A stretch of 64,000 nucleotides of DNA from assembly GCF_020520425.1 (NCBI RefSeq), contig NC_079492.1, positions 117,959,157 through 118,023,156 of the forward strand, read 5' to 3'. Below, piece after piece: positions 4,317-29,840 of the stretch. Both the position numbers and the translations under genes were made by a program. The first letter of the stretch is position 1. The number at the start of each line of letters is the position of its first letter. Origin of the DNA: Spinacia oleracea. Taxonomy: Eukaryota; Streptophyta; Magnoliopsida; Caryophyllales; Amaranthaceae. The notes beneath the pieces are model-generated. The model worked only from the letters and a program-made list of their open reading frames with translations, made no database searches and had not been told where the DNA came from.

Positions 4317-5415
4317 GGACATGTTGGTAATTTTAAGTGGAGTAAAGGTGGGTGGCCCACCATTAAGTACAACTTCTGATTTTTTCAACTTCTCTCTCTA
4401 AAAATCTGTTCCAAAATTTGAATTTCAAATTTTTGTTAATTTCAGTTTTTCTTTTATTTCAATTTTATAATTTACTGATTATTAATTTAATGTAATGTAA
4501 AAAATCAGGTGGGTTTCATTTTTACAGTTTATTTCCAAAATACGGTTCTTTCGTCTTCTTCCTCCTTGCGTGCTCTCCCGCTCAATTGTTCTCCCTTCAA
4601 ATTCTCCGGCAAGAACTTCCCAAATTGTCAGTCTCTCGTTAGAAGGTTAGCCACTTCGTGACCGGTTTCCAATTCATACCTTCCAAAAAGGGTGTTTGCC
4701 AGGGCGATTATAATCGGTGATATTTGTTAACTAACGAACTGCTCAACTTTTCCAGGTGAAGTTAATTTTTTTCTGTATGAATTGATGTTTAGTTCTTGTT
4801 TTGGTAATATTTTATGTTTTCACAGTTTTTTGGGGCTGATTTCAACTTGAGTTTTTCCATTTCCTTTTTCTTTTTCTAATGTTTCACCATTTTGTTTGAC
4901 AATTGTGTTGCTGATGAATTGAAAGTGAATTTTTTTCACAATTATGTTCTAATTACTTGAAGTAGCTCTTGTTATGGAAATTTAAGTGTGTATCTTTAAT
5001 TTAGTGATGAAGTAGCTATTTTTATGGACTTTTCATATTTTGGGGTTAATTAGTGGTTAATTTGTGGTTATTATGCGAATTTTATACTGTGATGTTTGTT
5101 GTTGAATTACTTTCCTAGTCGAATTAAGTAATTTGATAAGCCTTCGTTTAGGTAAAGTTAAACTGATATGAAGCGGTGCCTGATTAATGTTTAATTCGTG
5201 TGATGGCATGCTTTTAAAACTACCTTTGTTTGTTTTATTGTTGTTTGATACTTGATCTGGTACCAAATGGAAAATATTACATATTTTGGTACATTTAGGT
5301 AAAGGATATATGATTTGGTATTTTCTTTGGTACCAAACCTAAATTACCAATGTGTTTTCTACTGTTATATCGAAGGTATGCATGGTATAATGATTGGTTA
5401 AATTGTATTTGTAGG
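4317..5415 (+). promoter_or_regulatory. Left subterminal region, promoter and 5' noncoding exon of the Ulp1-like gene
   Basis: There is no coding sequence. A pyrimidine-rich segment at about 4550-4755 looks like a 5' untranslated exon; a good donor (CCAG|GTGAAG at 4755/4756) and a good acceptor (TTTGTAG|G at 5414) bound a 659 bp intron that ends one base before the start codon. Three copies of the element's TTTGGTAC motif sit in this intron (5260, 5285, 5326), one of them the full palindrome. The transcription start is inferred, not seen. Confidence 0.5.
5326..5337. promoter_or_regulatory. Perfect palindromic copy of the dispersed motif
   Basis: TTTGGTACCAAA is a 12 bp perfect dyad; nearly all other sites match one half of it plus the central GTAC. 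This is the best single candidate for the full binding site of a dimeric protein. Confidence 0.6.
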
Positions 5416-8400
5416 ATGGTTATCAAGGGACAAAGTGGTAGCAGCAGCAAACCTAGGGTGAGTGTCACTGCTCATTTTATGAGTGTATCGTATTTGATGA
5501 TAATTGATAGTATGTATATTGTTATACGTTTATTAACAAGATATGTATTTCAATATTGTTTTTAAGGAAAAACGCGTGGAAGTTGCTCGGAATAGTAAGC
5601 TAAAGGGCAAAGACCCTGTCGTCGATGAAGAAATGGAAGAAGATGAGGAAGGGCGATCGCTGTCTGGGGATGACAGTGAAGAATCTATTTTTGACGGGGA
5701 TGCATATGAAGATGTTGAAGATGATGAATATGAGGATGAGATATATGAGGACGAAGAATTCGAGGATGAATTATGCCAGAGAACAGTGAAACGTGCGCCA
5801 AAGAAAAGGCAATTTGCTAAAAGTAGGAGGGTTATTGAAGTAGAGGAGGAAGAAGATATAGAAGACGAAGACGGTGAATATATGGATGGTGGGTATGAAG
5901 ATGAAGGAGAGGATGTTGTTGTTCGCGTTCAGAAAAGAGGGAAGAGTTGGAAGGAGGTCGGGCAGAATGCTTTGAAGAAGAAGGCACATCTGCAGATGAT
6001 GCGGAAGAGGCGTAGAGAGGATTATGATGATGTTGACGAGGGAAGGAGACCTGTGAAGAAGACGATACTTCCTGCGATGAAGCAGATGGGTAGGAAGTTT
6101 GATGAAACAGGGGTAGCAAAAGGAAAGCCCCCTACAAAACAGAAGGCAATCAGAGGGAATAACAGGAGGATGTTTGTGCGGGTATATAATTTTGAAATTT
6201 ATTCATTGTTTTTAAGGATTTTTATGGTATAATAATGTTTTTTCTACGTAGTTGATGCTAATGTTTTTTTCATATTTAGGTATCAATTCCCAAACATCCT
6301 ATGTCTAGGGGTGAGTATGTGAAGTTTCACGGCGTGGTAGTTGCTACTCAGCGGGCTAATTGTGGCCGGAAGGTACTATTGATCCTTTATTTAAAGATGA
6401 ATTGTGTATTTTGATTAGGTTTTGTCAGTTGATAATTTCAATTTTTCACTTAAACTATTATGTGTAGCAACCAAGCGTTATCTGTCGCACGGATGCATTT
6501 TCTAAGATTATTGCTGCTTTTGATGAGTCAAGGAGAAGTTGCGTTAGGAAAATGGGTTTCGGGGGGATGTTGGATTTGAAAATATCCAAGCTACCTAGGC
6601 AGCTGTGCTACTGGCTGATGTCCCGGTTGGATGGGGGTAACAGTTACCTTGTTGGAGGGGACGGCCATGTGTTGCCGATAACTGCTTCCCATTGGGAATA
6701 TGTATTCGGATTCCAGAACAGCGGTCTTCCGGTGCCAGTGAAGGAGTCTGATCTTCCTCCAGGCACCCTTAAAGCGATGGCCCTCAAGTATGGTGAAAAG
6801 AATACATCAACCTCAAAGAGCACAATAATCATAGCAAAATCTGTAAAGGAATTGGCAGGGCCGGTTGACGGTGAAGGAAAGATAAAGCCCCTGGCTAATC
6901 AGCGTGATAGGGCCTCGTTCATGGAAAATTTCATGATTGTGTTGCTGGGGCAGATTTTATGTCCTTCTACCGATGGGGGTAACATGTCTTTAAAATTGCT
7001 AGGTGCAGTTTCCGTGGCAAAGAATGCATCACTGTACAATTGGTGTGAGTTTTGTCACACATGGCTTTTAGACTACGGAGACGCTTGTCAGCGGAAGATA
7101 GACCATCAGGGGTATGCCGCTGGGACTGGTGGTTGTGTGTTGTTTTTGCTGGTGCGTCTATCTTACTGAAATATTTAATGTTTTAAATTATATAAAAGGT
7201 TAATACTGTTATTGTTGTGGTGTTAGTATCCTGTCTTATATTACAGTGCCTTACCTGAAAGTGGATTTGTTTTACAGATTTTCTACCTAGACCATTTATG
7301 CAGGCATCCTGTGAGATGGGATGAGTTTCCCAGGATCAAAGTCTGGACACAAGACGAAGTGGATGAGGCCAAGAATCGGGATAGGAAAGCGAGTGAAGAT
7401 TATGGAAGGATTACGGTGGGTAACTGGTTGTTAGTCGGTCGTATTTGTCATATTAAATTTTGTATTATCTAATCTGACTGAAATCTATTCCTTTTATAAT
7501 CTTTCCAGACTGTTGATGTTGTGTACGAGGATCCTCATCCCCTTTACGGCAGGGAGGGTAGACGGTCTCCCGCAGTAGAGGTTGCTGAGATGGTAGCACA
7601 GATGACTTCTTCAGAATGGAGACGCACCCTAGCTCAGGAGGTCACAGAGATGGTATGGGAAGTTAAACGCTTTCCTCAATTTTATGTTGATGTTAGTGAT
7701 TAATAGCCATAAATGTTTTAGGGTTTCAAATAGTACTCATAAATGTCTTTAGGTGTACCATATGAATGATATTGATGTTGTTTGGTACTCTCTGTAGTGG
7801 GATAATTTTCAAATATTGAGTGTTAGTGATAAACAGGCATACATGTTTAACTAGTAAAAAATAGTACTCATGTCTGTGTGTATGAATTACTTTACCTTTT
7901 TTTCTGTTTAGGTTATGGGGCAGCTTGCTCCATTATTGCAAGATCGCCGGGGCGTATCCCGTGAAAGAGGAATGAGGTCATATCATGCTACCGATCATTT
8001 GACGATAGATGTTGATGGTGTGGCTATGCCGTTGGACAAGTCTGTCAATAAGGTGCTTACAGAGTTGGATGCCGATGACGATTTCGATGTGGAGTTGCAA
8101 CCGTCTGATGGGGGACGTGTATTTGTGGGCCCTCATGGGAGTGTGCCAGTTATGAATCCCCTAGACCCGGTCAGCCACGGTGATGTACCTTTGGTCCACA
8201 CTGCTGTCAGCCACGGTGATGTACCTTTGGTCCACACTGCTGTCAGCCACGGTGATGTACCTTTGGTCCACACTGCTGATGATGTTGGTGTAGTAGCAAC
8301 TGAGCCAGAAACAAGCAAGCACCCGGTCGACCAAACACATCAGCACGGACAAGTTCAAGCTGGTGACGGGCCACCTTCAGATGGAATGTCATCGGAGAAG

Positions 8401-10331
8401 GTGGGACAGCTGGGTGTAGTTGAAGACAAAGAGGATGATGAAGACAAAGGTGAGGAGAATGTTGAGGAGCCGGAAGAGCAGGATGGTGGCGTCAAGGATG
8501 GGGGGCCGAATAACAGGGATGATGACGATGATGAGGGACCGGCTAATGGTCCTGTGCAAGGAACGGTTGCAGCATCGCCCTTGGAGAACATCGCTCAAGA
8601 GAACCCCTCTGAAGATAAGAACAGTGAAGAGAACACCAGTCAAGATAACCCCACTGAAGGGAAGACCACTGATGAGAATCTCCAAACTGATGACCAAGAA
8701 CGACCACGGGAGAAATTGATCCTAAGGATTCCGAGAACAAACCCAAAAACACGCTATCGGCAGACGCGAGTACGAATGACAAAACTTGAGAGTGACGTAG
8801 TAGCTTATGTGGAGTCATACAATCCTAAAGGGAAAGAGCAGTACGTTCTACAACTTTTACTCATGTAACACTTCAGTACGTTGTATACACTAATGTACGT
8901 TGTACATTTATGTAATGATAATCACTTGTATCTGTATTTTATGTTTGCAGGGGGGCCATGCTTATCGAGTGTGATGGTAATGATGCAAATCGGATGATGT
9001 GCTACTCGGTTGTGCGTCCTAGGGAGTACGTGCATTCCCAGTACGTTCGGGCCGTTGCAAACATATACAACAGGGAATGGGCTCTGGAATACCCAACGAA
9101 TTCTCGCAGAATCATGCTGGACTCCTCATTTGCGGTATGTTCTCCTAATATTCACCATTAATGAAATCAATAAAGTAAGCGTACGAGGTTTCTTAGTTTT
9201 TGGTTGTTGTGCTTTACAGTATCAGAAATTAAAGACGAGGGAAACATATGCTGGTCTGCTGAAGAAGTGGTTCACCCCTCTCCAGAAGATTGTGTCAGCT
9301 GATATATCCGTGGTAAGTCTAATTAGTCTTTTTACTCCATGTTTAGATGTCTGATTATACGCCAACAACATGTGTCTGACTATTTTCGGACTAATAACTG
9401 AGTGATGAGGCCGTATTTTAAGGATTTGGAAATAAGTTCCTACATGCCTTTTACGTTGAATGATTGCTCTCTATTTGGTCAGTTCGGGATTTGTCTTCTT
9501 TTTGAGGAACGTCCTTGTACAATTTGTTATTTTAGTTTTTGGTGTATTAATTGTCCGCGACACACAGGTATGCGATTTGTAAGAATTTGTAATTATCATG
9601 TCCAGGTCTATGTTCCAGTTGTGGACAACGGACATTGGTGGTGAGTTGCTTTTGCACTGAAAGAACAGAAGATATGGTTCATTGACAGCATGTATACTAA
9701 TCCTGCTTCCGAGCATTCTGGGGATGTTAAAAAATTGGTATCTAATCATGTGATATGTAGTTTTTACTTAGTTTTTACTTAACCTGGTTTGGTGGGAGTT
9801 TAAGAACATTGACTTCACTCATTTTATTGTACTCACATAATACGGTCTCCTCATTCCAGATAGCAGCTGTGGAGTACGTTCTACATTGGAGGGACACGCA
9901 GTATAATACAGCTCCTGTTTGGAAGTTGAAGCAAATGCATACTTGGCCCTTGGACTCCATTAGCTTCCCTGACTACAACGACAAGTACTGTTTATGCTAC
10001 CTTTTCATCGTCGAGTAACCACCTTAAGTCTTACTGATATGTTTTGTTTGGCTTTGTAGTCATGCGTGTGGAATAGTAATGCTTATGGCTATCCAGGAAA
10101 GTGCAAGGGCATTTACAAAGATGATGCAAGTGGTAAGTCCTCTACTACTGTAACTGTAAGTGCTATACCCCCACACTATAAACTTACAGTTGTCTTTTCA
10201 AACTTGTTTTGGGACAGGGGGACATCAATGTAGCTCGGAAGGCACTGTTTTTGTCTCACTTGAATTCAGATTTCAACTCCTGCCGCCCGCTTCTTCCCCA
10301 AATCGTTGCAACCCACTGCCCAGTTCGTTGA
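5416..10331 (+). pseudogene. Ulp1-like (C48) cysteine protease gene of the MULE, one stop codon
   Basis: Thirteen coding exons can be joined in frame through canonical GT/AG sites: 5416-5457, 5567-6181, 6280-6372, 6468-7151, 7278-7415, 7509-7652, 7912-8840, 8951-9134, 9220-9312, 9606-9737, 9860-9984, 10060-10132, 10218-10331, about 1,121 codons. The N-terminal 200 residues are acidic (EDDEYEDEIYEDEEFEDE) then basic. The fourth exon holds the plant mobile-type domain usual in Ulp1 MULE proteins (LPRQLCYWLMSRLD ... LPITASHWEYVFGF), followed by IFYLDHLCRHPVRWDEFPRI. The protease core is at the C-terminus: VYVPVVDNGHWW (catalytic His), KIWFIDS (Asp) and NHACGIVML (Cys). Codon 9642-9644 directly after HWW is TGA, although the protein similarity continues at once (VAFALKEQKIWFIDS). 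So this copy carries a nonsense mutation, unless that base is a sequencing error. Such proteases remove SUMO-like peptides; in MULEs their role is unknown. Confidence 0.82.
8170..8277 (+). repeat. Three tandem 36 bp coding repeats in the Ulp1-like gene
   Basis: The 12-residue unit VSHGDVPLVHTA occurs three times in a row with near-identical DNA, in the acidic linker between the N-terminal domain and the protease. Being in frame it changes only linker length. The near identity says the expansion is recent. Confidence 0.95.
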
Positions 10332-11748
10332 TGTTTGGTCGTGCTTCATCTGCTAACGTTTAGGGTTTTTAACTGAGAAAACAATTGCACACTTATCTGG
10401 TCATTTTTTGAAATGTGATTAACGCGTGAACTAAATCATAGTTGTTGTCTTTTGATACTCACGTTATTCCTAGGAGATGGGATTCATTGCTTGCAGGTAT
10501 GTTTTGTAAGTTTTGTGGTATGCTTTGTATCGTGCATTAAAGATTTACAATACGAGTTTGGTACGTGTTGTGGTACTTAATAGGTTGTTTGGTACCGTTA
10601 TTAGAAAAGTTTGGGTACAATCTACGAGTTTGGTACAGCCTGAACTTTGTTCCGGCTTTGCATGGTACCAAGCATAAATTGAGTACCAAACAAGATCAGA
10701 TATGTACCACACGAACATTAGTAATTGTTGCTACAAAAGTTGGATGATTAAGAGTTAGACAAAATAGTACGAAAACACGGTGACCTCAGTAATCAAAATT
10801 TGCGGTGTTTATGAATTTAGTCAATAACTATTTTTCATTTCAGCAGTGTTTATTGTTATAAAGGATAAAAATGTTATATCAGGTCCTAAGTCAGGTCCGA
10901 TCCGTTCGACAGGCTGGTAATTTTGTATCGAAATACAATTTTGACACATTAGTTTTTTTAGATACATAAGTACTGGCACACGAGTTGAGATATTAAGAGT
11001 GAAATTAACGGTTGCTACAAAACATTAAGTACTGGCACACGAGTTGAGATACATAAGTACTGGCGCACGAATTTCTACATTTTGTATAATTCATCCTGAA
11101 ATCCATCCAAAAAAACAAGAGCATTATATATATGTTTATGCAGATCGTGTGAAGTAGTTTCCATTATTAAGTAGTTTCCATTATTTAAAGCGAAGAGGGT
11201 AATACGAATCATGGATTACATTATCCCCCGTTACCATTGGGTAATATGATTCTGGACGGTTCTTTGTAAATGAACTATTTAATTTTCGGTAATATTAATC
11301 ATATGTTATAAGGGTTACAGTTTGGTATACCTCTTCTATTTGATTCGGACTCATCTGATTACTAATATGAGATAAAAACGTACAATACCTTGGTTTGGTA
11401 CATTATCAGCCGTAAATTATCACCCGTTTGGTATCAAGTTCGGTAGTTGGGTTTTTATTGTGGTTAATTCTCGTTAATTTGAATTTGAAAATTGAAAAAT
11501 GTGATCTTTTGTATGGTTTGTAGAGTAATCTGGAATCAACACATAAACATATGTTTAAACTAACCAAATCACACTTTTACATTCACACTAACCAAATCAA
11601 AGGAAATATTATGCTGAAGGAGGATGTCAAACACACAGGGTAATTAAAAAAATAACTAAAGCAATACATTTGTGAAATATGAAACAATCACCCAGCTAAC
11701 ACTATGGCATTGAAATAATAGTATGCAAATGGCCAGACTTCCAGGACA
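10332..11748. other. Intergenic DNA between the protease gene and the tandem gene pair
   Basis: No gene is visible. It is the densest patch of the element's motif: five TTTGGTAC/GTACCAAA cores lie at 10557-11401, four of them within 134 bp (10557, 10588, 10629, 10683), with near-misses at 10570 and 10658. At 10967-11070 the phrase ACTGGCRCACGAGTTGAGATA is repeated about three times. A duplicated segment shared with 12777-12835 starts at about 11560. Confidence 0.6.
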
Positions 11749-12324
11749 TTACATGCCACCACACTGAATCCTCCAACTGTAGTTTGCATTCCCCACACTT
11801 GTGTCGAAATTATTGAAATCAATGTCACTCGGTACATTAAGTAGTGGTTCCCTAGGGTTCAAGGTATTTGACCCTTCCCTCCACAGGTCACAGACGCACT
11901 TATATTTAAACCTTGTGTAAGTGCCATTTGTTTCTTTGTACTCTAGGGTTTCATAGTATCGAAAATTAAGGGTACGTACTCTTTCGGAGAATTTCCAATC
12001 AAAGTCGGGGCGGTAGTATTGATTGATCAATTCCATGGCCCACTTCTTGCATGCGAACACTGAATTAGCCCTAGTTGGCTTGTCCATCTTAGACCATATA
12101 ACACCCATTATATTAGCATCTCCGGCAACAATTTCGACGCTCTTGGACTTCGCACATCCGTGTTGGTCTGGTTCAACATCCGCATAGCCATACTTTTCCG
12201 CGAGGTCGATCTCGAATTGTTGTATGAGGTCGTGTTTGCGAGCAGTTTTGTGTTGTTCCGTATAATCGAAACGGTAACGGTGGTTAGGACAGACTCTGGG
12301 GTAATAATTGGGCGGAATTTCCAT
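11749..12324 (-). CDS. Unknown 191-residue protein, tandem copy 1 (single exon)
   Basis: I do not recognise this family. The start is put at MEIPPNYYPRVCPN because the neighbouring copy has the same start context and both then give exactly 191 codons; an in-frame upstream ATG at 12354 would add ten residues. Visible features are CPNHRYRFD near the N-terminus, a conserved FEIDLAEKYG segment, WSKMDKPTRANSVFACKKWAMELINQYY in the middle (likely helical), an aromatic and basic segment FRYYETLEYKETNGTYTRFKYKC, and a C-terminus YSWRIQCGGM. Spaced Cys and His residues exist but no clear zinc finger. No signal peptide or membrane segment is seen. Being intact inside a MULE with a decayed transposase, and duplicated, it is a candidate for an element-maintenance function such as DNA binding; that is inference only. 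Confidence 0.75.
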   Translation of the reverse strand: MEIPPNYYPRVCPNHRYRFDYTEQHKTARKHDLIQQFEIDLAEKYGYADVEPDQHGCAKSKSVEIVAGDANIMGVIWSKMDKPTRANSVFACKKWAMELINQYYRPDFDWKFSERVRTLNFRYYETLEYKETNGTYTRFKYKCVCDLWREGSNTLNPREPLLNVPSDIDFNNFDTSVGNANYSWRIQCGGM

Positions 12325-12967
12325 TTTCTCGAATGAAATGGTTTGTGAAGACAATGAAGTTTATGGAAATGCTTTGTGAAGACAATGAAGTTTATGGAAA
12401 TAACCCTCACATGAAGTGTTATTTATAAAGCGCCTGTTTTAACCGTCACATAACTGCCACCTTATCCATTTAATAACAAAAAACACCCATATTTCGTTAT
12501 GCTAACCTTACACTATTCCTTTAATTTGAAAAAATTATACCGTTGGTACCTCTGTCGCAATATAAACAGTACCAAACATGTGTTGTTCATTGGTTTGGTA
12601 CTACTTTACTCAATGGTACCATATGCCTACGGAATAAGGGTGATCGTAGACCATTCGACGAAATTATAACATGACCTTAGAAACTGTTAGTGTTATTTGT
12701 CGTTCGTTATTGAAAACCTAATTACCATTATACAAATTTTAAAAAAATACTTCATTTTAGCAATCATAGTTATTAAACCAAATCACACCTTTACATTACA
12801 ATAACATAATCTAAAGGAGGATGACAAACACACCAAATCACACTTCACACTAGGGCATTTAAATAAAATTAAGCAAAACATAAGATGAAAAGAAAACAAT
12901 CACACACCTAAAACTATGACATTAAATAACATAACGAAAATGGGTAGAGAATTCCAATTCCAAGACA
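12325..12967. other. Spacer between the tandem copies
   Basis: Contains the shared promoter side of copy 1 and the 3' flank of copy 2. Two motif cores lie at 12569 and 12594 with GGTACC copies at 12545 and 12615. Its end (12777-12840) repeats the sequence found at 11560-11640, so the duplicated unit is about 1.2 kb and includes flanking DNA. Confidence 0.55.
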
Positions 12968-13543
12968 TTACATGGCACCACACTGAATCCTCCAATTGTA
13001 GTTTGCATTGTTCCCACTTTGATCGAAATTATTGAAATCAATGTCACTCGGTACATTGAGCAGCGTTTCCCTAGGGTTGAAGAGATTTGATGATTCCTTC
13101 CACAGGTCATAGACGCACTTATATTTAATCCTTGTGTAAGTGCCATTTGTTTCTTTGTACTCTAGGATCTCATAGTATCGAAAATTAACGGTACGTACTC
13201 TTTCGGAGAATCTGCAATCGAAGTTGGGGCGGTAGTATTGATTGATCAGTTCCATGGCCCACTTCTTGCATGCGAACACTGAATTAGCCCTAGTTGGCTT
13301 GTCCATCTTAGACCATATGATAGCCATTACATTATCATCTCCTGCAACAACATCGACGCTCGTGGGCTGTTCATCACCGTGTTGGTCTGGTGCAACCACC
13401 GCATGGCCGTACTTTTCCGCGAGGTCGATCTCGAATTCTTGTATGAGATCTGGTTTGCGAGCAGTTTTGTGTTGTGCGACATGATCATAACGGTAATGGT
13501 GGTTAGGGCAGACGTTGGGGTATGCATTTGGTGGAATTTCCAT
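12968..13543 (-). CDS. Unknown 191-residue protein, tandem copy 2 (single exon)
   Basis: A paralogue of the gene at 11749-12324, with the same length and strand and a repeat spacing of 1,219 bp. The starts (MEIPPNAYPNVCPN) and ends (NYNWRIQCGAM) correspond. Most of the sequence is identical by eye, and the differences are concentrated around residues 45-60 (DLAEKYGHAVVAPDQHGDEQ against the other copy's YGYADVEPDQHGCAK). Both frames are open throughout, so both may be functional. An in-frame ATG upstream at 13612 would give 214 residues but is not conserved in the other copy. The function is not recognised. Confidence 0.75.
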   Translation of the reverse strand: MEIPPNAYPNVCPNHHYRYDHVAQHKTARKPDLIQEFEIDLAEKYGHAVVAPDQHGDEQPTSVDVVAGDDNVMAIIWSKMDKPTRANSVFACKKWAMELINQYYRPNFDCRFSERVRTVNFRYYEILEYKETNGTYTRIKYKCVYDLWKESSNLFNPRETLLNVPSDIDFNNFDQSGNNANYNWRIQCGAM

Positions 13544-14293
13544 TTTGCAAATGAAATGCTTTGTTGTGAAGAGATGTGAAGAGAGAATAAAGTTTTTGAA
13601 TATCTCCCTCATACTAAGTGTTATTTATAGAGGATTTGATGTAACGGTCACAAAACTGCCACCTCTTCGGTTTTATATTATTTAGATAATCAACCGTCAC
13701 AATATACTCACACTTATTGACGCCAACATTTACACTTAAGAAACCTTATATCTTCTTCAAACTTTATATCTTCTTCAAACTGCTGACCTTTGTTGTCAGT
13801 TATGATATTCAATTCGCGCGATTTTCAACCTAATACGCTTTAATATTTCAGCTTTATTAAAGACCCCCAAAGAAATTACCAGACAGCGTCCCTTCGTTAC
13901 ACTAAATGTTGACGAAAAAATAGGATTGTCGAGTATTAAGTAGCCCGTATGAAAATTTAGCGTAGTCGAGTACAAAGGCGTTATCGAAAATTACAATAAA
14001 ATTACCCACAAATGGTAATTACACAATATGGTTCATTAAATAGTTGCAAACACTTAACATACTTGCAATCACTTATCATAAGACACACTTACACACATAT
14101 GCAAAGCCTAATTTCATAAACAAAAAGACGCACTAACATTACACAGTTGTACACAATGACATCAATTTTTAAAATAACATTTACAACTTACACTGCGTCA
14201 CACTAACTTACTATTAATATGTACTACTTATAATGCTTCACACCTTACTTTAGCAAACATACGGAATTGCGTTAACGAAGGGAATAATCAGTC
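13544..14293. other. Intergenic DNA
   Basis: The 5' flank of tandem copy 2 and AT-rich sequence. I see no gene and none of the motif cores here. A short repeat ACCTTATATCTTCTTCAAACTTTATATCTTC is present at about 13742-13775. Confidence 0.45.
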
Positions 14294-14764
14294 TCACGGA
14301 GCAAGCGTAGGGGACTTGATACGCTCAATTCCTATATTAAGATCAATCACCCTTTGTTCTGCGTCGTCATATTGCTCAATGATTTCTTTCATATGGTCAC
14401 AAAGATCCCCATGACCACCGATACGCAACGCCTGGTGTAGCGATGTAAAGAAATGACGTTGCATGGATTTGAGTCGATGTATATGTTCTTTGCAATTTCG
14501 TATCCCATTCTCCATTACCTTGTTCATTTCATCAACGCCTTGCTCCACATCGTCATACCTCTGTAGCAAATCCTTGAAAAGGGTCTCAGCCCGATTATTC
14601 CCTTCCCACCTCATTCTTATCATTGTTGATTTTATGCAGTCACGTTGAGTTATTTTCGCTTCCTTGATTTGTTGCACCTTTGCATTAATTTCTTCCATGG
14701 CACGTTCTTCCGCCGTGGGTCTATGAGGGACGCCACACCATCTTGAGTTTGCGGACGATGCCAT
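14294..14764 (-). CDS. Small coiled-coil protein, unknown function
   Basis: A single-exon gene of 156 codons if started at MASSANSRWCGVPHRPTAEE (an upstream in-frame ATG at 14794 adds ten residues). After a short N-terminus the protein is almost entirely charged helix: EERAMEEINAKVQQIKEAK, then two related heptad-like segments, QRYDDVEQGVDEMNKVMENG and EQYDDAEQRVIDLNIGIERI, about 55 residues apart, which suggests an internal duplication and a two-helix coiled coil. No enzyme motif, membrane segment or zinc site is seen. It lies in the same orientation as the two 191-residue genes. A structural or dimerisation role is inferred from composition alone; no family was recognised. Confidence 0.65.
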   Translation of the reverse strand: MASSANSRWCGVPHRPTAEERAMEEINAKVQQIKEAKITQRDCIKSTMIRMRWEGNNRAETLFKDLLQRYDDVEQGVDEMNKVMENGIRNCKEHIHRLKSMQRHFFTSLHQALRIGGHGDLCDHMKEIIEQYDDAEQRVIDLNIGIERIKSPTLAP

Positions 14765-15456
14765 TTTATTATCGTATTTCTCCAATACATGCACTCTATA
14801 AACGTGAATGTGTTCTCCTTTTTATAGAAGACGATCCCTGGGTCCGTCCTTATCCAAATAATGTGGAAATGAATAACTACCTTTATTATTATAATGAAAC
14901 TTCCTTTCTATATGTAACTACCCATCGGGGGTATGGTGCGCAATACCCGCCTACCAAACTTAAAAACTACCACGTCAAGTTTGTCATTGTTTTATCCCCA
15001 TAAAGTACCATTCCCAAAGTTATGCTGTCTCAACCTCCTAAATACAGAGTCCCAAACAATCCACACTCTCAACGATTGTTTATTAACTAAACCTTTTGTA
15101 TAACACATATATGTTTCATGTATTTATGGTCCAGGTGTGATACGGAGTATTTGTAAGTGTGTATATAAATAAGTTATACCGGTTTAAAAAGTATACGGGA
15201 ATAAATCATCGTATAACAAACCTAGTTAATTGGTAGTTTGGGGTTCCAAACGTAAAGATTTGAAGTTCATTTACTAACTTATGTAAAAACGTTGGGAAAT
15301 GTGAGTCACATTAATTACTTTCAACCACTGTAAGTAATGGCTATCAACTACCTGTTCTAGTATAACTTCATTTAATCTTCTCCCTTTATACAAACTTATA
15401 GCCATAAGTATTTTCCCCCTCACTCAAAAGCCAACTTGTCATTACTACCTTTTAGC

Positions 15457-16876: not shown

Positions 16877-17405
16877 AGATGGCAAGGATTGAGGGTGAGT
16901 CAACTACAACAATTATAAACAACTAGGGTTCATATTATATTGGTTTGTATTCGTAGTCGGCTATATTCTTATAATCAGTGTTGTGTAAGCTGAAGAAATA
17001 AATTCCTTAAGTGTTGTATTATGATATATAATGTTAGAATTTGTATTAAATTGAACATGGTTTATTTATTAGTAATGCTAGACTATCATGACAAATGTAA
17101 TGTTAATAACATATTAATTGTGAACTCATATAAATTCACATAAAGTACGAATTGGCTATTTGGTACTACCGTGTGTACCAAATACCGATTACATAGTACA
17201 AATACAGTCCTAGGGCCTTACTGAAAACGACCAAAAAATACAAGCTTTTGGGAGAATTTTGCAAACCTCCTAGGGCTAAAATAATAACACTTTCAGAATA
17301 AAAAAAACATAAACTTACCGAGGACACACCGATTACGTAATGTTTGTGTATCCCAAACCGCATCATTTGGTACCCATATTAGCGAAGTGTAGGTACCAAT
17401 TAGCA

Positions 17406-18533: not shown

Positions 18534-18996
18534 GACTGGAAGTAGTTTCTTGTTAAATCTCTATAGAAAGTTGGATGCAAAATGAAATAAAACCTAGGAA
18601 TGCCTCATTTTAATTATAGAAGTACAGGATAAGGAATGCAACAATGAATGATTACCTTTGTTGGTGGTTGGGGTTTAAGTCCAAGTACAACTTTAGTAAA
18701 GGGTAGTTGGCGTAACTATAGTATATTAATGAAAAGACATAAAATAAACTTACTTGTGTAATGTACTATTCACAAAAAATACGAGGAAAAAATACAAGGT
18801 CAAAGTATCTGAATTTGTATTGTTTATGTATTATAAAATTTTAAGGGGAAATGCAATAACTACAACGTACTTTAACACCAACGTCCGTAATTAAAGTTAC
18901 CAGTTGCCCTATTTATCACTAACGACTGACTGACTTGAGGTCCTCCCCTACAATCAAACCCGAAGTCCCCCTATACTGTTAATCAAAGGAAGCCTA
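18534..18996. other. Divergent intergenic region
   Basis: Lies between two divergently oriented genes and so probably holds both promoters. No motif core and no other structure was found. Confidence 0.4.
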
Positions 18997-20372
18997 ATGC
19001 CAAAATCACCAACACAAAACGTTTTAAAACAATGTGTAAGCAATGAAACGTCCCCAACCAGGAACCTCCTATACCATCCTCGCGAAGCAATGTACTTCTC
19101 CCCGGCTGCGGGTATGCGATATGAGTTGGATATAAATCGGACCTTTTACTTTCAGACCTATGACGAAATCATAGGGGAAGAGGAGTGGAACCCCGTTGAT
19201 AGGGACACTATCGTACGGGCAATATTTTCAAAAACATCGGACAGAGAAGGATTTCTCGGTAGATTCATGGTAACGGAGAACAACCGTGTATTACCATTCC
19301 ACCTCCCCACTCCCGAAGACTCGGGTGGTCGTATTCCAGCTGGTTTGTTAGCTTACATAGAGTGGGAAGCTAGGAGTAGGGCCGAGTTTGAGGCGTTTGA
19401 GGTAATCCCTTATAATTACTTACCTTTCATTGATCCCATTCCAGTACTACATATTGACCAAACACCGGTATACACTGTACCAATCAAAAAAACCCCTATA
19501 TTTTTTGGTTCTTACACCGTTGGACTTCATGTCATGAAAAACTCTAACTACATTCACTCAATTGACGTTGATGTCTTCTACTGTGAAGGGAACCTGTATA
19601 AAAAGGGTTACAACCATATTCACCTGGGATCAACAGAACAATACGTCGGTCATACAACACCGACACTACTGGCAAAGGGAATGTTAGTGGTCATTTGGAA
19701 TGCTAGAGGTGTAACCAGGCCTTCGTTCAAGGAACACTTCTATCGCATATTTTCCCAACTTACACCGTCCATTATCATCGTGACCGAGTCAAGAATAAAT
19801 GAACCTCAACTACTGCTTATCGCACAAGCACTGCCTGGGACGTACCAACATGACTTATTCGGTCCCGAAGGACGAGCCGGGGGTGTTGTTATGTTTTGGT
19901 CTGTCAACCAAGTCCAGCCATCGATTACGTACCGGCATGATCCCGTTTGTCAAATGGGGGGAGCAAAACCTAAACACCTTGCGTCGTTACAATTTCATGT
20001 AAGTGTCTTCCGTTTTACATAGACATATAGTATGAGATAAGGTTCCAAACGACGGTTTGGTACACAAACAATAACTACATGGTGTACCAAACCATTCAGT
20101 TTCGGCCATGCATTTTCGATCCATATAAAACTGATTTGACCGAGAAAACACGTATTTTCGGGTATTACTATACCAAACGAGGGCATATAAAACACCAAAT
20201 GTTTGATAGTGTACAAATGGGGGTTACAAGGGATGAATGAATGTATGTTTTTGGTTCATTGTAGCTCAATAATGTTTGATAAAACATATAACAATTTGTT
20301 CCTTTTATTCGTACGTAGGCTGTGATCCCGGGAACGACTTTCCGAGCAAAACGGCGTCTATTGATGTGCTAA
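18997..20372 (+). CDS. Nuclease-lobe family gene 2 (intact, divergent)
   Basis: Exon 1 is 18997-19998 (334 codons, donor CAT|GTAAGT) and exon 2 20319-20372 (acceptor TAG at 20318, ending TAA), 351 residues. The first 230 residues form an unrecognised, probably beta-rich domain (NLLYHPREAMYFSP, YELDINRTFYF, LAYIEWEARSR). The last 100 residues read MLVVIWNARGVTRPSFKEHF, then PSIIIVTESRI and GGVVMFW. This is the pattern of the start of plant LINE endonuclease domains (exonuclease-endonuclease-phosphatase fold): WNxRG carries the catalytic Asn, TExR the metal-binding Glu, and GGxxxxW the next strand. The second half of that fold, with its GDFN and SDH motifs, is absent, so a nuclease is unlikely; a binding or structural role is more probable. 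The exon 2 tail is basic (RAKRRL). The frame is intact. It has diverged strongly from genes 1 and 3. Confidence 0.72.
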
Positions 20373-20582
20373 GCGTTGCAGATGGACAGACCCAATGAAA
20401 GGTAATATTAGCTTTCCCTAATCCATAATAACTAAAAACAGCCCCCCAATTAACGCGAACAAAACTTACGGGAATACGACACACAGATGTAATTTACATA
20501 CGAAAGATATTGATGAAATAGTCCAACTCTTAAAATACGCTTTTTATTGATTATTACGATCTATTACAAAGGAAACGTCGAT

Positions 20583-20951
20583 TTACTTTGGGAGGAGAAA
20601 ATACACAAAAACTATAAGACAAACGACGAATAATTTATACAACATCCAAATGCATGATTCAATCTTGTCGAGGCGGTGGAGGACGCGGTCCAGCCCAACA
20701 TCAACAAGACGCGATGGCAGCATGTTTTCCTCTGTTATTAAATTGTGATCTTCAACCCACCGGAACCACCCACAAAATCGACATTTAAAATATAATTTAT
20801 GTGGATTTGTGGTTGTTTGTGAAATCCTTAGTTCAGTTATGCAAGTGATGCATGTTGGACAACTAATCGTCTCGCACCAGAGCATCTTCCGGCCATCTAC
20901 GCATCCCACGTTTGCCGGCGGTGACCTTAGGGAATTAGAACTATGAGACAT
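20583..20951 (-). CDS. GRF-like zinc-finger protein with C-terminal membrane anchor
   Basis: A single exon, 122 residues. After a serine-rich start (MSHSSNSLRSPP) comes CETISCPTC, then TTTNPHKLYFKCRFCGWFRW. The arrangement C..C, T.NP...yFkC..C..F.W is the plant zf-GRF signature, a small zinc-binding, possibly nucleic-acid-binding domain common in plant transposon-associated genes. The last 20 residues (WMLYKLFVVCLIVFVYFLLP) are strongly hydrophobic and followed by one Lys, typical of a tail anchor. So the protein is probably held in the ER or nuclear membrane with the zinc finger in the cytosol or nucleus. Similar GRF-plus-tail-anchor small proteins are widespread and uncharacterised in plants. 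The spacing of the first Cys pairs is somewhat unusual for the family. Confidence 0.7.
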   Translation of the reverse strand: MSHSSNSLRSPPANVGCVDGRKMLWCETISCPTCITCITELRISQTTTNPHKLYFKCRFCGWFRWVEDHNLITEENMLPSRLVDVGLDRVLHRLDKIESCIWMLYKLFVVCLIVFVYFLLPK

Positions 20952-21205
20952 TAGCCTGAGTTATTTGATTTTAAATTATTTAAAATGAGCTAGGAAGTGG
21001 CCAATTACTTGTGGCTTATATAGCTGTGGTGGTCAAAGTCAAAGATTCTTTGACAAGCTTCCAACACTTTTGAATTTTTACTGAGGGAGGCGGGAAAATT
21101 CCCGCTCAATGTTTCAAATTAAGTTTGGAATTCTCCTATTACTACGTTGTTTGGGATAGGCCATTTCGTACGTTTGGGACCTTAATTTAAATTTAGTTTT
21201 TAATG

Positions 21206-21296
21206 TATCGTATTTGTTATTGGTTAATTAATCGTATTGGTTAATTAATCGTATCGGTTAATTAATCGTATTGGTAAATTATTCGTATTGGTTAAG
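21206..21296. repeat. 17 bp tandem repeat
   Basis: About five copies of TATTGGTTAATTAATCG, with small variants. Confidence 0.85.
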
Positions 21297-22046
21297 GGAC
21301 TGAATGTGTACCCGGTCGAGAAGTCGCCCCAATCTCATTTGGGTCTAGGGTTGAAAATCTAACCAATGACGGTATAAATCCGACCACGCTCACAAACCTT
21401 AGTAGTGTTAAGAACCCGATAGTTGATTTCAAAAACCCATTCAATCCGATTACCTTAGATTTACCTAATTCATTCACGTAGGAGGTAATTATCATTTTAT
21501 AACCACATATGTATATAATTATGTAGTAATAGTCTTACTAAGTGTAATGTATGGTCGTATGCGTACAGATCGTGGTCATCATGAAATCATAAAATTTCAA
21601 TTTTCGTATTTGCATAAATTAATAACACTTGATATTTTGAATATAAATATCAGGATAACATCATCGAACATCATAACATACGTAAATTAAGACCACCATG
21701 TAATCTTACATTGTTATATTGTTACGTAAACACATTTTATTCTAAGACGTGAGAATTTTCAATTTTAAACACATATTGTAAGACATAAACACATTATATT
21801 GTAAGACGTAAACAACCTATTAATGAGGTACTAATACTAATAAAAGTTCACAAATGTAATCATTACATTTTATTACTAATATTGGGTTTGGAGTCATTTC
21901 AAATATGAGTTAACAATGATCGGACACCCTAGTGTCGAATAGGTCACGGCAAATTACAGACCTATAATATCCGACTTTTAACACATTAAAGTACCCTACA
22001 CCCTTTACCTTCAAACATATCACTAACTATTACATAACCCTAAATT

Positions 22047-22430
22047 CCGATTCTTAGTAGTCTACTGTTCCATACCGACAATATGAGTGTGCCAAACTAC
22101 TTATGATAACGAAACCACATTTCCCTAAAATCCAATTCTTAGTGGTCTACTTTTACATACCGACAATATTAGTGTCCTACAAGTCATAGTAACTAACCCT
22201 AAAATCCGATTCTTAGTAGTCTGTTGTTCCATACCGACAATATTAGTGTCCCAAACTACTTATGATAACGAAACCACATTTCCCTAAAATCCAATTCTTA
22301 GTGGTCTACTGTTACATACCGACAATAATAGTGTCCTATACAAGTCATAGTAACGACAACACATAACCCTAAAATCCGATTCTTAGTAGTCTGTTGTTCC
22401 ATACCGACAATATTAGTGTCCCAAACTACT
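22047..22430. repeat. Higher-order tandem repeat, about 160-170 bp made of two 75-85 bp half units
   Basis: The half unit CCGATTCTTAGTAGTCTRYTGTTCCATACCGACAATAT starts at about 22047, 22206 and 22376, and a variant CCAATTCTTAGTGGTCTACT at 22132 and 22291. Half units alternate A-B-A-B-A, a higher-order repeat structure like that of satellites. It lies between genes, in the middle of the MULE. Confidence 0.88.
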
Positions 22431-22815
22431 GAATCAAACGAAAACATCACCAAAGTCGGATAAATTGTGTTCAACATTCAACTATTGATTTCACTCAACA
22501 ATAAGAACAATTATGCAGATAACGTTAAATTGCAGTAGTTTGCATTTACAGGAAAAGTACTCTGGAGCGGTACCAAGTAATAAGATCAGTAAACCTGGTG
22601 GTACCAAACGACGTAATAACTTTTTAACCCACCTAGGTTGTTAGGAATTTATTTCACTACGTTTTTCCACCTACAACTTTAGTGTAGTATTCACTTCCCT
22701 TTATAGTTGACAACCTCCTTCCAGTGGGGACTCCTCAAACCAACCTACTTGTTTCTCCTTCTAGCTGTTCAAACCCTAATTGTTTCCAAATTCTCCACCG
22801 GCAAACCTGCCAAAA

Positions 22816-24114
22816 ATGGACAAAGGCAAATCTATCCTTGTTTGTGATAGCAGCCGAACACTACTCTGCCACCCAAAAGCCATAATGTACTTCGAGCAGC
22901 CAAAATCTTCAAACGGTCCTGAATTGAACTACAACACCACTTACTACTCCATCGACGTCGAAGACGCAGAAAAGGGTCTCCGTGTGCCGCACGCAATCAA
23001 AACTGACCTGAATATCCAGCTTTATTGTGCCGTTAGTAAGTTGCCTTACCACCCTGTTATGTTCCCTTGCTCTGTGATGGTCACCTCTGCAGGTAAAATC
23101 CTGCCTGCACACCACCCTTTAATTACGGACCACCCTAATATGCATCTAGGGTTTTGGGCCTACTTAGATTGGTGTTCCAACCGGCTTGCTGCACAAGGGT
23201 CGTGGTTGTTGTACCCGAACAACCTCCTCGCTGTGGTAGACCCTAGACCAGCTGTAGTTGTGGACGACCTCCCTGTGTACAATTTCCCTGATTCCAGGAG
23301 CCACGTTTTCATTGCATCCAACGCTCATGCTATTCATGTTATGAGTGTGGAACATACGTTTACTGGGGTGGAAATTACTGTTGTTCCAAGGTATTTTCAG
23401 ACCAAACGACGGGCTTACACTGAGGTGTGCTTAGAGGGAAAGACTATGGTTGGGACGGAGGTTTCCGCCTTCATACCACGAGGTACGGTGGTCGTTGCAT
23501 GGAACGCCTTATCCATGACCAGACCCTCATTCAGAGCCACCTTCTTTGAGATGTTTGCAAGGCACCATCCATCACTCATGGTCGTTACTGAAGCCCGAAT
23601 AAGTAACAACGACTGCAGGGAGCTAATTAGCAACTTACCAGGAGAATATCAATCCAAATGGTTTGAGAATCAATGCGGAGGGGTAGTCCTTATGTGGCGG
23701 GGAAACGACTTGTTACCAAACTACAATGAATCTGATTTGGGTTCGGCCAACCTCCTGTTTACTGTCTTATTTGAGGTACTTCATTTAATTTCTTATTTCG
23801 GTTCCCAACGCTTTGTTTTACACCGTCTGGTACTTCCAATAGGGTACCAAACATGTATGCTTAGTGCATTGGGTTGACTCCATAGTACCAAACAGGTGTA
23901 CATAGTACTGCATTACAATGCATACCGGTATTTTATGGGTGAGTATGGTACCGTTATGGGTGAGTATGGTACCGCTACCGCTATTATTATGTCTCATACG
24001 AACTATGTGATGTAGAGAATTAGAAAACATTTAAGTTGATTGTAATCGTTTATTTGATTTATGCAGTCGGTGAAGCTCCAGAAGCAACCACTTGCGCTTA
24101 AACTGGAACTGTAA
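22816..24114 (+). CDS. Nuclease-lobe family gene 3 (intact)
   Basis: Exon 1 22816-23775 (320 codons from MDKGKSILVCDSSRTLLCHP, donor GAG|GTACTT) and exon 2 24067-24114 (acceptor TGCAG at 24066, ending TAA) give 335 residues. The N-terminal 220 residues are an unrecognised domain shared with genes 1 and 2 (MYFEQPKSSNGPELNYN, DLPVYNFP, HAIHVMSVEH, RRAYTEVCLEG). The C-terminal part, VVVAWNALSMTRPSFRATFF, LMVVTEARI and CGGVVLMW, corresponds to the first lobe of LINE endonucleases with the Asn and Glu positions kept (RG of the usual WNxRG is LS here). The catalytic Asp and His half is missing. The intron holds two exact motif sites (23844, 23885) plus a pair of TATGGTACCG copies at 23945 and 23966. 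The intact frame beside a dead sister copy suggests it was still selected recently. Confidence 0.72.
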
Positions 24115-24926
24115 GCGCCAGAGTCTGGAGCTATTATACACAATTTTCCCCATCAGTGTGTGTGTAGTACTTATTATGTAGGGTGGTTTTTACCTATAGT
24201 ATAAGAACTTAGTTAGGTACTAGCTTAACTACGGCGTAGTATTTTTCGGCATAGTATTCATCACCATGACGTATTTAGTTATTAGGTTTGGGTAGATTTT
24301 TCTATCCTACTTCTATGGCGTAATAGTAACAGGTAAGTTATTTGTTGTTGTTCAGACATTGCCTACCTTTAGCTCGTCGAAAATGTAATAGGTGTATTTT
24401 ATAGTTTCAACCTAGGCGGCGCTGCCTTCCATGTAATATTTTGCGGATGATGCTTTTCGTATTACTAGTCTTATTCTTATTCTTCATACGTATTATTCGT
24501 CTTTATTTTTTTAAAAAAAGTGTTGGTGTTACGACAAGATGTAGTACCCCTATAACTTTAACAAATAGTCGTTCTATAACAGATACCGCAAAAACACTAA
24601 CACAAATACTGTAAAACATAGCAAACACGAAGTAGGGTACCAAATTACCGAATTATACATGGTTTAGTACATAGCAAACACGAAGTAATTCAGAGTTCTG
24701 TGTCAATTATGAAAATTCAGTTTACGATAGTATCTAAAGAAACCTTATTTAAGTTACGACATCCTGTAAACCCCAAATTGGGTTACAAATTGAATCATAT
24801 GCTTACAGAGGAATGCACATATGGTAACACGCCATAATTCAAACTTATTGGATGAAAGTCAATCAACTTCAAATAACGTACCACAAAGGTAGATTTATTG
24901 GGTGGATTTCACCATGGAAATCAATT
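24115..24926. other. Intergenic DNA between convergent genes
   Basis: The 3' flanks of nuclease-lobe gene 3 and the transposase. One exact motif site lies at 24637. A duplicated phrase, ACATAGCAAACACGAAGTA, occurs at 24616-24634 and 24670-24688. No gene is visible. Confidence 0.45.
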
Positions 24927-27900
24927 CTAATTCTTCGTAAGGTCATGACAACCGAGCAGGTCTTGAGTGAATACTGGATTACCACTGGCGCCATGTATAG
25001 AATGCGTTCCACACCCACCCTCATTGACTAAAAAACCCGGATTGGACTGCAACAAGTGTTTAGTAGTTGGTTGATAACTACGGTGATCCCCATGGGGGGT
25101 TTCGTTCACAACCTGGAAACTATGCCGGTGCTGGTTATGATTTGCAGGCATACAATGAGTCCCGGCCTCTTGATAATTTCCACCTCTGCTGCTGCTGTTA
25201 CTGGTGAAGTAACGAATGGAACCAGCATTCTGGGACATTTGCGACATCTGAGATATTTGCACTACACTCAAGTTTTGCGACATTTGCACACCATTAATGT
25301 TCTGGGACATGTGTAAACCGGATATGTTTTGGGAAATTGGACCACCAGATATGTTTTGTGACATTGATATACCACAACGGTCTTGGGACAAAAGTACGTC
25401 ACCACCCTCCGGGGTCATACGAATCCCACCCATAGACATGCGAATTTCTGTCTGTCCTGAGGGAAACAAATTTGTGGCAACAACTCCACTTACTCTTCCA
25501 GATGACTGTATACATGTCAAACGCTAATAAATACAAGCTAAATGTTGTTGACGGTTAATAAACATTTAATAACATGAGTGGTACAAAAGGACACGAAAAA
25601 AATCACCTGAAACTGTTGATCAGATACCCCATTGTTGTAGTTCTGCTGAGGGTATACCATAGTCCCCCTTACTTGCCCAGCCATTTGAGGCGGGTAATCA
25701 GCACTATACCCCTGGAAATATCACAAACTCAAATCAATATTTGTTTAAATAGAATATCACAAACTCACAAACTCACATCAATATTTGTTTAAGTTTAATT
25801 TGTAGCGTATGTGATTCACTCACATATTGATCGTGGGATCTCCAACCAGGATGGAAGGTGTTTGGCGGCTACACGTAGTTGTGTTGAGGAAGGCAAGTGT
25901 TCTGACAATTGCTGGTTTCTGGAAAGTCTTGTGGTACAACACTCTTGTTTTTCCAGACTTGCTTCCTTGCGGGGTTTTTATTCTCACCTGGTTGTAAAAA
26001 TCTTTTTTCACGAGTCCTGTGAGCCTTTAAACCACCGCGCGGAACAGGATATTTAACCATAACAGGGGGTAAGTGTGGTAGTATCATCCCCAACGCTGTT
26101 TGGAGGTTTGTTAACGGAGCCTGGTGTCGTAGGACCAACAATCGCCATCCTGTTCCCCCCGGAAGTCAGTGCACCAGCTTCGTTATCACCAACTGCTGAA
26201 AGAGCATCACTCTCATCAAGACGTAACACAATATTCATAATACCTTCTATGACCAAATCCAACTTCTGCTCGGAAAGTGATCCACGGAGGGCAGCAGGTT
26301 CCACCGCATTCATAATCCGGTCATAGCGCTTAACTTCTTCTGATTTCTCGAGATCATGATAAGCAACCTTCACAAAAGTGTGCTTGCGTTGTATATCTTT
26401 CCTCCATCGGTCAACTATATATCCAGCAGGCACATTTTCCACATCCTCCACGTCCAACACCTTAATGATGTGCCTACACATAATGCCGTGGCACTCGAAA
26501 TCTTTGCGGTCACACTTTACAAACGAGGTCTCCTTGTTGAACATCACGACGTATATACGCTTCCGGCCTGCCAAAGATATTTCCTTTCTCAAGAACTTGG
26601 ACCATACCCATACTTTGTCAGACACCGTATGCTCAACCTCCACATCAGAAACTACTTTCGAAGTAATAGGTGTTACGTAACATACCCGCATACATTGGAT
26701 CTGGACTTCAACGAACTTCGCATCCGTATATAGTTTCTGGAACTTCCTCTCCACAGCAAACTCTCCAACCAAGACCGAGTAAAACGACAGCAGTTCACAT
26801 CAGCAGCTTTTTCATCATTGGCCCTACTTTCCATGGCCTTGCAGTACCTAGGAGCAAACTGATATAATCTCGTATTCTTCTTCAAGTACCCGTCGAAGAA
26901 ACTGTTAATACTCTCAACCCTCTGAGTCGTCTGCATCCCCGCCCAAAAAATATGCTTCACATATGCAGATATCCACATTTCTCGCTGATTATACAACCCT
27001 ATACATTTAAAATAGGTCATTAGGTAAATTAACAACAAAGGAATTGAACATGAAAGACATTCTCACCAAAGACAATGCCATATATGAAATACCTACCACA
27101 TTGCACATGTAAATCAAATATTTATTGCAGTTTGGTACATAATTAAATGAAAACGTGTACCAATCCAAAATGTTATCGCGGTTTCGTATGATGTATACTT
27201 TACCATATCACGATTAGAATTAAAAGTAGTACCAAACCATGATAAATACCTACTAGCCACTTGTAGCTTTCCTTAGCCTCCTTCAGCTTGAAAGTTTCCA
27301 CCACTTCAGCCCAACCTTCTTCGAATTCAACAGGGGTCAAACTGTTGTATATGACATTCTGTAGGGCAACTTTTATTTGGGGAAAATCAGTCATCGAACC
27401 CAATTTTCGGCTGAACTTCTGCATAATATGCCACATACACCAACGATGTCTGGTTTTAGGCATTGGCATTGCTATTCTAATTGCCTTCCTCATAGCCGCA
27501 TCCTGGTCGGTCATAATAGCAGCGGGAGCTTTACCCCCCATACAAGACAACCATGCCCTAAAGAGCCAAACGAACGTTTCCGCGGTTTCATGAGACACTA
27601 ATGCACATCCAAGCAAAATTGTTTGCCCATGGTGATTCACCCCAACAAAGTTCGAAAATGGCAACTCATACTTGTTTGTCAAGTACGTGGAGTTAAAACA
27701 AACCACATCCCCAAAATACTCATACGCGGTCTGCTACGAGCATCAACCCACATTACATCCTGCAACTTCCCTGTTTTATCAAGCCGGTGGAGATGGAAAT
27801 TTTTTTTATTATCCTTTGTCATTTTATCTAAATAATTTATCATTGCAACAGCATCCCCATCTCGTAGCCTCAATCGCATCCTCCTATTCAAAATATTATG

Positions 27901-29831: not shown

Positions 29832-29840
29832 GTTTGTGCC
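29832..29840. repeat. 9 bp target-site duplication, right copy
   Basis: GTTTGTGCC, identical to 4260-4268. Confidence 0.9.

Follow-up and report, generated by a model that had tools for sequence, protein, structure and literature searches.

The sites of the Spm protein TnpA lie at the element ends, and VANDAL transposases carry a DNA-binding domain other than FAR1. TnpA and maize MURA are element-encoded proteins tied to hypomethylation of their own family, as excerpts of PMC10398659 describe. In VANDAL elements, VANC21 binds YAGTATTAY and VANC6 acts through AGTTGTCC/AGTTGTAC, in the non-coding DNA of the target families; the same excerpts of PMC5735166 describe the VANC21 sites as tandem arrays of one orientation and the VANC proteins as having variable regions with tandem peptide repeats. 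A Ulp1 domain is furthermore present in some VANC genes (KIU), which act on VANDALs that carry KIU (PMC13317346, in excerpts), and 9-bp target duplications are described for VANDAL elements in parts of PMC6446971. Here we report on a 64,000-nt stretch of the spinach genome (C6:117959157-118023156, in the following called the window), which holds a 25.6 kb Mutator-like element (MULE) of a family that we call A (25,563 bases), strewn with the short motif TTTGGTAC. We propose, at roughly even confidence, that this dispersed motif is the binding site of an element-encoded protein, probably the N-terminal part of the product of the element's Ulp1 gene, and that it serves a sequence-specific anti-silencing similar to that of VANC and KIU.

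The dispersed motif in element A and its relatives

The window contains 29 copies of TTTGGTAC, 25 of them in element A and four in the other 38 kb (1647, 53100, 58242 and 60748). Dinucleotide shuffles of the whole window lead to an expectation of 3.7, with none of 100 shuffles reaching 29, and a second-order Markov model expects 2.35 copies in the element, which corresponds to a roughly tenfold excess. The excess claimed in an earlier sequence-only reading of this DNA therefore stands, also against shuffled sequence as it had proposed, although its counts of 24 and two sites and its expectation of 0.8 were too low. The 9-mer GTTTGGTAC (opposite strand GTACCAAAC) occurs 17 times in the element against 0.48 expected and not at all in the other 38 kb, and it ranks first among the 9-mers of element A in an unsupervised k-mer scan (words in at least five separate places were taken in one scan, at least four in the other). 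As previously counted, there are 17 such longer words and a single full dyad TTTGGTACCAAA (5326-5337); of the palindrome described, the GTAC core qualifies and the 8-mer itself does not. All sites but one (16080) lie outside the modelled exons, and this bias (24 of 25, P = 1.4e-6, for a coding share of 12,431 of 25,563 bases with hand-set and partly approximate exon ends) replaces the earlier count of 23 of 24. Sites are present in either orientation, some of them arranged as inverted pairs, and the tandem arrays found in the element include none of the 25.

Relatives of the element share the word. In family B (L064-L066), whose transposase core is 84 % identical to that of A and whose counterparts of three nuclease-like cargo proteins (the trio) are 43-56 % identical, the top 9-mer is the same as in A (14 against 0.37 expected), and 26 kb contain 19 copies of TTTGGTAC. 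When the B sites were mapped onto A by weak local alignment, 17 of the 19 had no aligned position in A, and the other two fell into a weak alignment made by the motif pair itself. Around the gene for a 191-residue cargo protein, ten more distant loci (L054-L063, 3.6 kb) carry three sites in two cases and four to five in eight, next to two to three in nearer loci, a pattern that looks like turnover with retention. At four sites compared among A copies and near relatives, two in the transposase intron and two upstream of the 191-residue gene, we counted 5 substitutions in 864 motif positions versus 265 in 12,949 flanking positions (P 9e-4, a value that ignores the shared ancestry of the copies).

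Further MULE families were examined over 10 kb each, namely D (L069), E (L067), F (L068) and H (L070), the last belonging to the same broad family as E with terminal regions matching at about 88-96 %. ATTTGGTAC is found 7 times in E and 8 times in H (0.2 and 0.3 expected) and ATGGTAC 14 and 13 times (1.5 and 2.1 expected), while neither 10 kb contains GTTTGGTAC; the transposase leader of E is packed with sites. Family F prefers ATGGTAT (12 against 4.1) and AAATGGTA (8 against 1.7), shows no excess of TTTGGTAC in its 10 kb (1 against 1.1) and has tandem arrays of AATACCATTTT-like units. Family D carries ATGGTAC (9 against 2.0), GTTTGGTA (6 against 0.6) and a single GTTTGGTAC (0.13 expected). 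The TGGTA core is thus common, with flanks that differ family by family (A/B, E/H and F), and the related elements examined are enriched, as the sequence-only reading had asked of them. One transposase intron of F is additionally filled by a tandem repeat of 13-bp units containing CTGATCAG (array ACTGATCAGGTGC, about 26 copies, L068:6126-6466).

Across the genome (894 Mb, 242 contigs), GTTTGGTAC is not common, as it occurs 6,422 times (7.2 per Mb) compared to 10,374 times for the reversed word. For this word as well as for the inverted pairs and the ATTTGGTAC pairs discussed below, the first 100 places were listed, and the assignment of listed places to families or to the vicinity of elements was made by eye. 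The 100 GTTTGGTAC places cover contig C1 from its start to 13.25 Mb, where 43 form three clusters (19 at 3.242-3.264 Mb, 15 at 4.364-4.383 Mb and 9 at 12.970-12.983 Mb) that coincide with the three transposase places listed in this range; the remaining 57 are spread out, apart from a few small groups of two or three. Together with the enrichment in A and B, these clusters bear out a dispersed, family-specific, non-coding motif of the kind known from VANDAL elements. The expectation that unrelated DNA would be poor in the word is largely borne out, the dense clusters in this range being these elements, but 57 of the 100 places lie elsewhere and two other repeat classes carry pairs of the word. 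Element matches were scored for 150 of 1303 transposase candidates, 150 of 163 for the 191-residue protein, 112 of 447 for the trio, 150 of 765 for the Ulp1 exon of A and 144 of 859 for that of H, so that family counts are lower bounds.

Inverted pairs of the form GTACCAAAC-N5..35-GTTTGGTAC occur 105 times in the genome versus once for the reversed control. The listing comprises 50 distinct pairs. In 35 of them the gap is 15-16, and every one of these 35 has a listed match to the transposase, the 191-residue protein or Ulp1 in its vicinity (no more than 2 kb away for 34 pairs and 12 kb for the last). They trace to about four unrelated insert sequences, and the fixed gap is therefore not just inheritance. 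In the remaining 15, the words are separated by 6 or 9 positions, and no listed element match lies within 250 kb of these pairs. This second class, GTACCAAAC-N6-GTTTGGTAC with one N9 case and often TATGTG or TATGTT between the words, lies outside the listed MULE places (C1:6442188, C2:5875359, C2:71464519, C3:154032588 and 11 others; L001-L003 look similar) and possibly represents another repeat sharing the word.

Spacing preferences beyond this are moderately supported. Distances between same-strand sites tend towards whole numbers of helical turns. When periods from 8 to 16 bp are compared, the best fit is 10.5 bp for A, 10.75 for B, 10.25 for F and 14.25 for E, with P values at 10.5 bp of 0.0055 (A), 0.09 (B), 0.10 (E) and 0.07 (F), and of 0.045, 0.053, 0.12 and 0.013, respectively, if the period is left free between 9.5 and 11.5 bp. 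Spacings of 41-42 bp on the same strand, 24 bp for diverging and 16-17 bp for converging sites recur; the first accounts for 7 of 27 same-strand pairs in A, B and E with flank identity below 0.45, against 1.0 by jitter, for a distance chosen post hoc. Direct pairs of ATTTGGTAC number 186 in the genome compared to 13 for the control. Within the allowed range of 29-57 bp, the 100 listed pairs are mainly spaced by 32 (10 pairs), 42 (32) and 51-52 bp (38), many being copies of the same few sites; 42 are of E/H type, two belong to the chimaeric family C introduced below, 12 are of A/B type and 44 lie outside listed elements. Of these 44, 31 are at loci with mostly 51-53-bp spacing. Such loci with a distance of about 52 bp, or five helical turns, include C1:15616493-15620122, C1:85702144-85705542, C1:95171491-95174891, C2:297220-300620, C2:100570451-100573826 and C3:64585798-64586722, with no listed transposase or Ulp1 match within 100 kb, and the sequences shown at C1:15.6 Mb have AATACCATTT-like words between the pairs.

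The Ulp1 gene and other candidate readers

All families have a transposase and a Ulp1-protease gene in common. The MULE transposase domain PF10551 was detected in the window and in D, E, F and H, with a FAR1 match above cut-off only in H. In B, D and H, a gene of Ulp1 type was identified directly, while the main Ulp1 exons of E and F lie outside their 10 kb, with matches at C3:66646919 and C4:178788208, respectively. The B counterpart passes the cut-off for Peptidase_C48 (PF02902, 2.2e-8), whereas the window copy, split by a stop, reaches only 0.13; the N-terminus has no Pfam match above cut-off. Among the matches listed, the exon at 6468-7151 of A is 74-75 % identical to 13 full-length matches of B type and 72-73 % to two more, 70-73 % to D-type, 43-45 % to five family C copies, 41-44 % to E/H-type and about 36 % to F. 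In A, three 12-residue tandem repeats are found in the protein's variable middle, and B has acidic octads there.

Near E/H-type elements, we also noted a second, diverged Ulp1 N-terminal exon, 40-41 % identical to that of H and oriented opposite to the first (C1:117005234, C1:117021976, C2:75886990, C5:108247113, C4:9039689 and C4:33075559). The paired exons are perhaps a VANB/VANC-like pair.

Family C is a chimaera. In five copies, its transposase core is 81-87 % identical to that of A, with E at 66 %, while the Ulp1 exon of the same copies is 85-86 % identical to H versus 43-45 % to A. All five carry a piece 86-90 % identical to the motif-rich leader segment of E, and one has three ATTTGGTAC within 100 bp (C1:70595220-70595317), about 3 kb from its Ulp1 exon. 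With an A-like transposase next to an E-like Ulp1 gene and E-type motif, the motif sequence seen in C follows the Ulp1 gene and not the transposase. This pairing and the presence of both genes in all families point to the Ulp1 gene, which was absent from the candidates of the sequence-only reading, as the likely source of the motif reader.

In the mechanism that we propose, the N-terminal part of the Ulp1-gene product (5416-10331) would bind the motif, the protein would occupy numerous intronic, promoter and intergenic sites, perhaps in a cooperative manner, and its binding would keep this transposon family alone free of DNA methylation, presumably through demethylation. VANC proteins, including those with a Ulp1 domain (KIU), reportedly have this effect on VANDAL elements. 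Our preference is based on the enrichment, the non-coding bias, the family specificity and the persistence of the word at non-aligning places in different families, furthermore on the lower substitution of the motif at four sites, the preferred inverted spacing and the union of E-type motif and E-type Ulp1 gene in family C, and finally on the tandem peptide repeats of the Ulp1 protein's variable middle, a feature also reported for VANC. A more far-reaching version, which we put forward only tentatively and hold to be rather doubtful, is that the Ulp1 gene and its matching motif array form an exchangeable anti-silencing module, which would have been swapped between FAR1-type MULE families as in C, with drifting flanks around the TGGTA core, an origin or arrival independent of the VANDAL lineage, and inverted pairs of fixed spacing in place of tandem arrays.

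Besides the shared ancestry behind the substitution test, several observations weigh against a Ulp1-encoded reader and anti-silencing. The transposase and Ulp1 exon of D are about as close to A as those of B, yet D has its single GTTTGGTAC in 10 kb, so that motif type does not simply follow Ulp1 identity. The N-terminal parts of A, B and H gave no Pfam match to DUF1985 or DUF287 at E up to 5, and the N-terminal exon has no convincing sequence relative in the PDB, its two matches having E values of 0.09 and 0.34. Family C is known from segments and not from whole elements, and its linkage of Ulp1 gene and motif could stem from recombination of neighbouring DNA. As to spacing, the 10.5-bp period is strong only in A, with E preferring 14.25 bp, and a full 41.5-bp lattice of sites was rejected as unsupported (P 0.30 in A, 0.14 in B and 0.01 in E). 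Words other than that of A are less specific, with 44 of the 100 listed ATTTGGTAC pairs away from listed elements and 56 beside them. Finally, CpG/CHG depletion as a footprint of past methylation was discarded as an indicator, since the element at 0.79 does not clearly differ from its flanks at 0.56 to 0.93.

Foremost among the alternatives, and in our view unlikely, the sites could be bound by the transposase through its FAR1 domain, either as internal sites or in a transposase anti-silencing as reported for maize MURA, which lowers methylation at terminal repeats according to excerpts of PMC10398659. A transposase is indeed found in each family examined, and the word TGGTATAC in the inverted repeats of A is one step away from TGGTAC. 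These repeats contain no TTTGGTAC, however, TATACC is near background inside A (23 versus 19 expected), the FAR1-region piece of A shows only 49 % identity to that of B, a family with the same word, and 55 % to that of D, which does not share it, and family C combines an A-like transposase core with E-type motif sequence. Terminal transposase sites thus fit poorly, and transposase sites spreading from the ends were dropped as a leading explanation because the inverted repeats carry a different word.

It is likewise improbable, in our estimate, that the sites are cis-regulatory elements through which an element or host transcription factor drives the element genes, with no role in methylation. 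The inverted pairs that recur in non-coding DNA beside the 191-residue genes of many copies and the site-packed transposase leader of E would suit such a function, but many sites are located in introns and 3' regions, and a host factor would not predict family-specific flanks.

Far less probable is a reader among the cargo proteins of family A, that is the 191-residue pair, the nuclease-like trio, the coiled coil or the GRF-like protein, which the sequence-only reading had named as the proteins of a new system. B, which shares the word, does have homologues of the coiled coil, the trio and the GRF-like protein, as well as of a three-exon gene, but the 191-residue pair was not found in its 26 kb. 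At E values up to 1e-4, the 10-kb segments of D, E, F and H gave no homologue of any of the four; E, F and H are enriched in TGGTA-type words, and D has a weaker set. Judged by eye, the listed 191-residue (143) and trio (112) matches are all more than 100 kb away from the four copies examined.

That composition or local duplication spread the word without selection is scarcely credible and has largely been refuted: the tandem arrays in F and three same-strand site pairs in B with 95-100 % identical flanks would speak for it, but the enrichment survives merging of sites less than 60 bp apart (11 places in A and 10 in B versus 0.48 and 0.37), no pair compared in A has flanks more than 59 % identical, and the motif bases change less than their flanks.

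Layout of the element and its surroundings

Element A (4269-29831) shows the marks of a MULE, with the PF10551 domain, a target duplication of about 9 bp and inverted repeats. The duplication GTTTGTGCC is found at 4260-4268 and 29832-29840, and the inverted repeats at 4268-4316 (plus strand) and 29784-29832 (minus strand), both holding TGGTATAC words and lacking TTTGGTAC, are 49-nt arms of 78 % complementarity, as examined in the window copy. A cluster of four sites including the full dyad (5260-5337) occupies the leading region of the Ulp1 gene (5416-10331, plus strand), which was modelled with 13 exons, a variable middle and an in-frame stop in exon 10; one site lies in a Ulp1 intron (7781-7788, plus strand), and four more cluster 3' of the gene (10557-10690). 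After a single site at 11394-11401 (plus strand), the two 191-residue genes follow on the minus strand (copy a, 11749-12354; copy b, 12968-13612), with an inverted pair at 12569-12601, 25 bp from start to start, about 245 bp upstream of one of them. The coiled-coil-like frame (14294-14794, minus strand) has sub-threshold matches only.

The trio is encoded on the plus strand at 15376-16448 (frame interrupted), 18997-20022 (Exo_endo_phos E 0.16, below cut-off) and 22780-23877; like the 191-residue proteins, its members have no Pfam match above cut-off. The only site in modelled coding sequence (16080-16087, minus strand) is located in this region, followed by sites at 16597-16604 (minus strand) and 17366-17373 (plus strand) and inverted pairs at 17159-17182 and 20056-20091. 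Downstream are a GRF-like zinc ribbon frame (20583-20960, minus strand; Zn_ribbon_GRF E 0.66, below cut-off), a site upstream of the third trio member (22601-22608, minus strand), two same-strand sites 41 bp apart (23844-23892) and one at 24637-24644 (minus strand). A tandem repeat of about 159 bp (2.4 copies, 92 % matches) at 22032-22446 also lies upstream of the third trio member. The MURA transposase gene (26053-28853, minus strand; MULE PF10551 1.8e-32, FAR1 9.9e-6 and below the curated cut-off) has two sites in an intron (27131-27138 and 27229-27236). The window copy is probably not autonomous, given the in-frame stop in its Ulp1 gene and a transposase core open frame shortened to 177 aa versus 551 aa in many copies.

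Directly to the right of the element, a short repeat (30150-30432) ending in CACTACAAG-like inverted ends resembles, read by eye, a CACTA-type miniature element, and minus-strand frames at 46102-47597 (RVT_3 6e-28, zf-RVT 2.9e-14) are probably remains of a LINE-like retroelement.

Comparison with described systems

We found no literature on Ulp1-carrying Mutator-like transposons in spinach or on the combination of MULE, Ulp1 and DUF1985, and the one literature match for the motif word concerns an artificial transactivator. The VANC system of VANDAL elements, as far as excerpts of PMC5735166 and PMC10398659 describe it, is similar in that a short word is placed in introns and in intergenic and terminal non-coding DNA of one family, that related families carry different words, and that a variable protein region contains tandem peptide repeats, here in the Ulp1 protein; the 9-bp target duplications (PMC6446971, in excerpts) are a further likeness. 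The spinach system, known from sequence alone, differs in its motif word, in a Ulp1 gene that lacks a DUF1985 or DUF287 match, and in a FAR1-type transposase within a 25.6 kb element with many extra genes. Its sites in A have both orientations and form inverted pairs with 0 of 25 in arrays, in contrast to the same-orientation tandem repeats described for VANC21. With the KIU (Kaonashi) and other Ulp1-carrying MULEs it shares the Ulp1-protease gene beside the transposase and the non-coding motif, and it differs from them in carrier families and motif, as judged from excerpts of PMC13317346. Since some Arabidopsis VANC genes carry a Ulp1 domain (PMC13317346, in excerpts), the independent origin assumed by the sequence-only reading is possible but unnecessary; its claim of a VANDAL-like version with a different motif is supported as far as sequence can show. 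Spm TnpA and maize MURA (PMC10398659, in excerpts) are comparable as element-encoded proteins associated with hypomethylation of their own family, which for spinach is a prediction. Unlike the terminal sites of MURA described there and those of TnpA, the spinach sites are absent from the inverted repeats.

In the literature examined, sequence-specific transposon anti-silencing has so far been dissected in Arabidopsis. Spinach offers one genome with several families, related but distinct motif codes and many young copies, in which family C separates the transposase from the Ulp1 gene and makes both the motif reader and a change of code directly testable, and its elements provide candidate proteins for targeted demethylation. 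Sasaki et al. (2022) reportedly described VANC systems across eudicots and a helical periodicity of their motifs. If so, the spinach case fits that class, and what is new is its motif, the inverted-pair architecture, the FAR1-type carriers and the chimaera.

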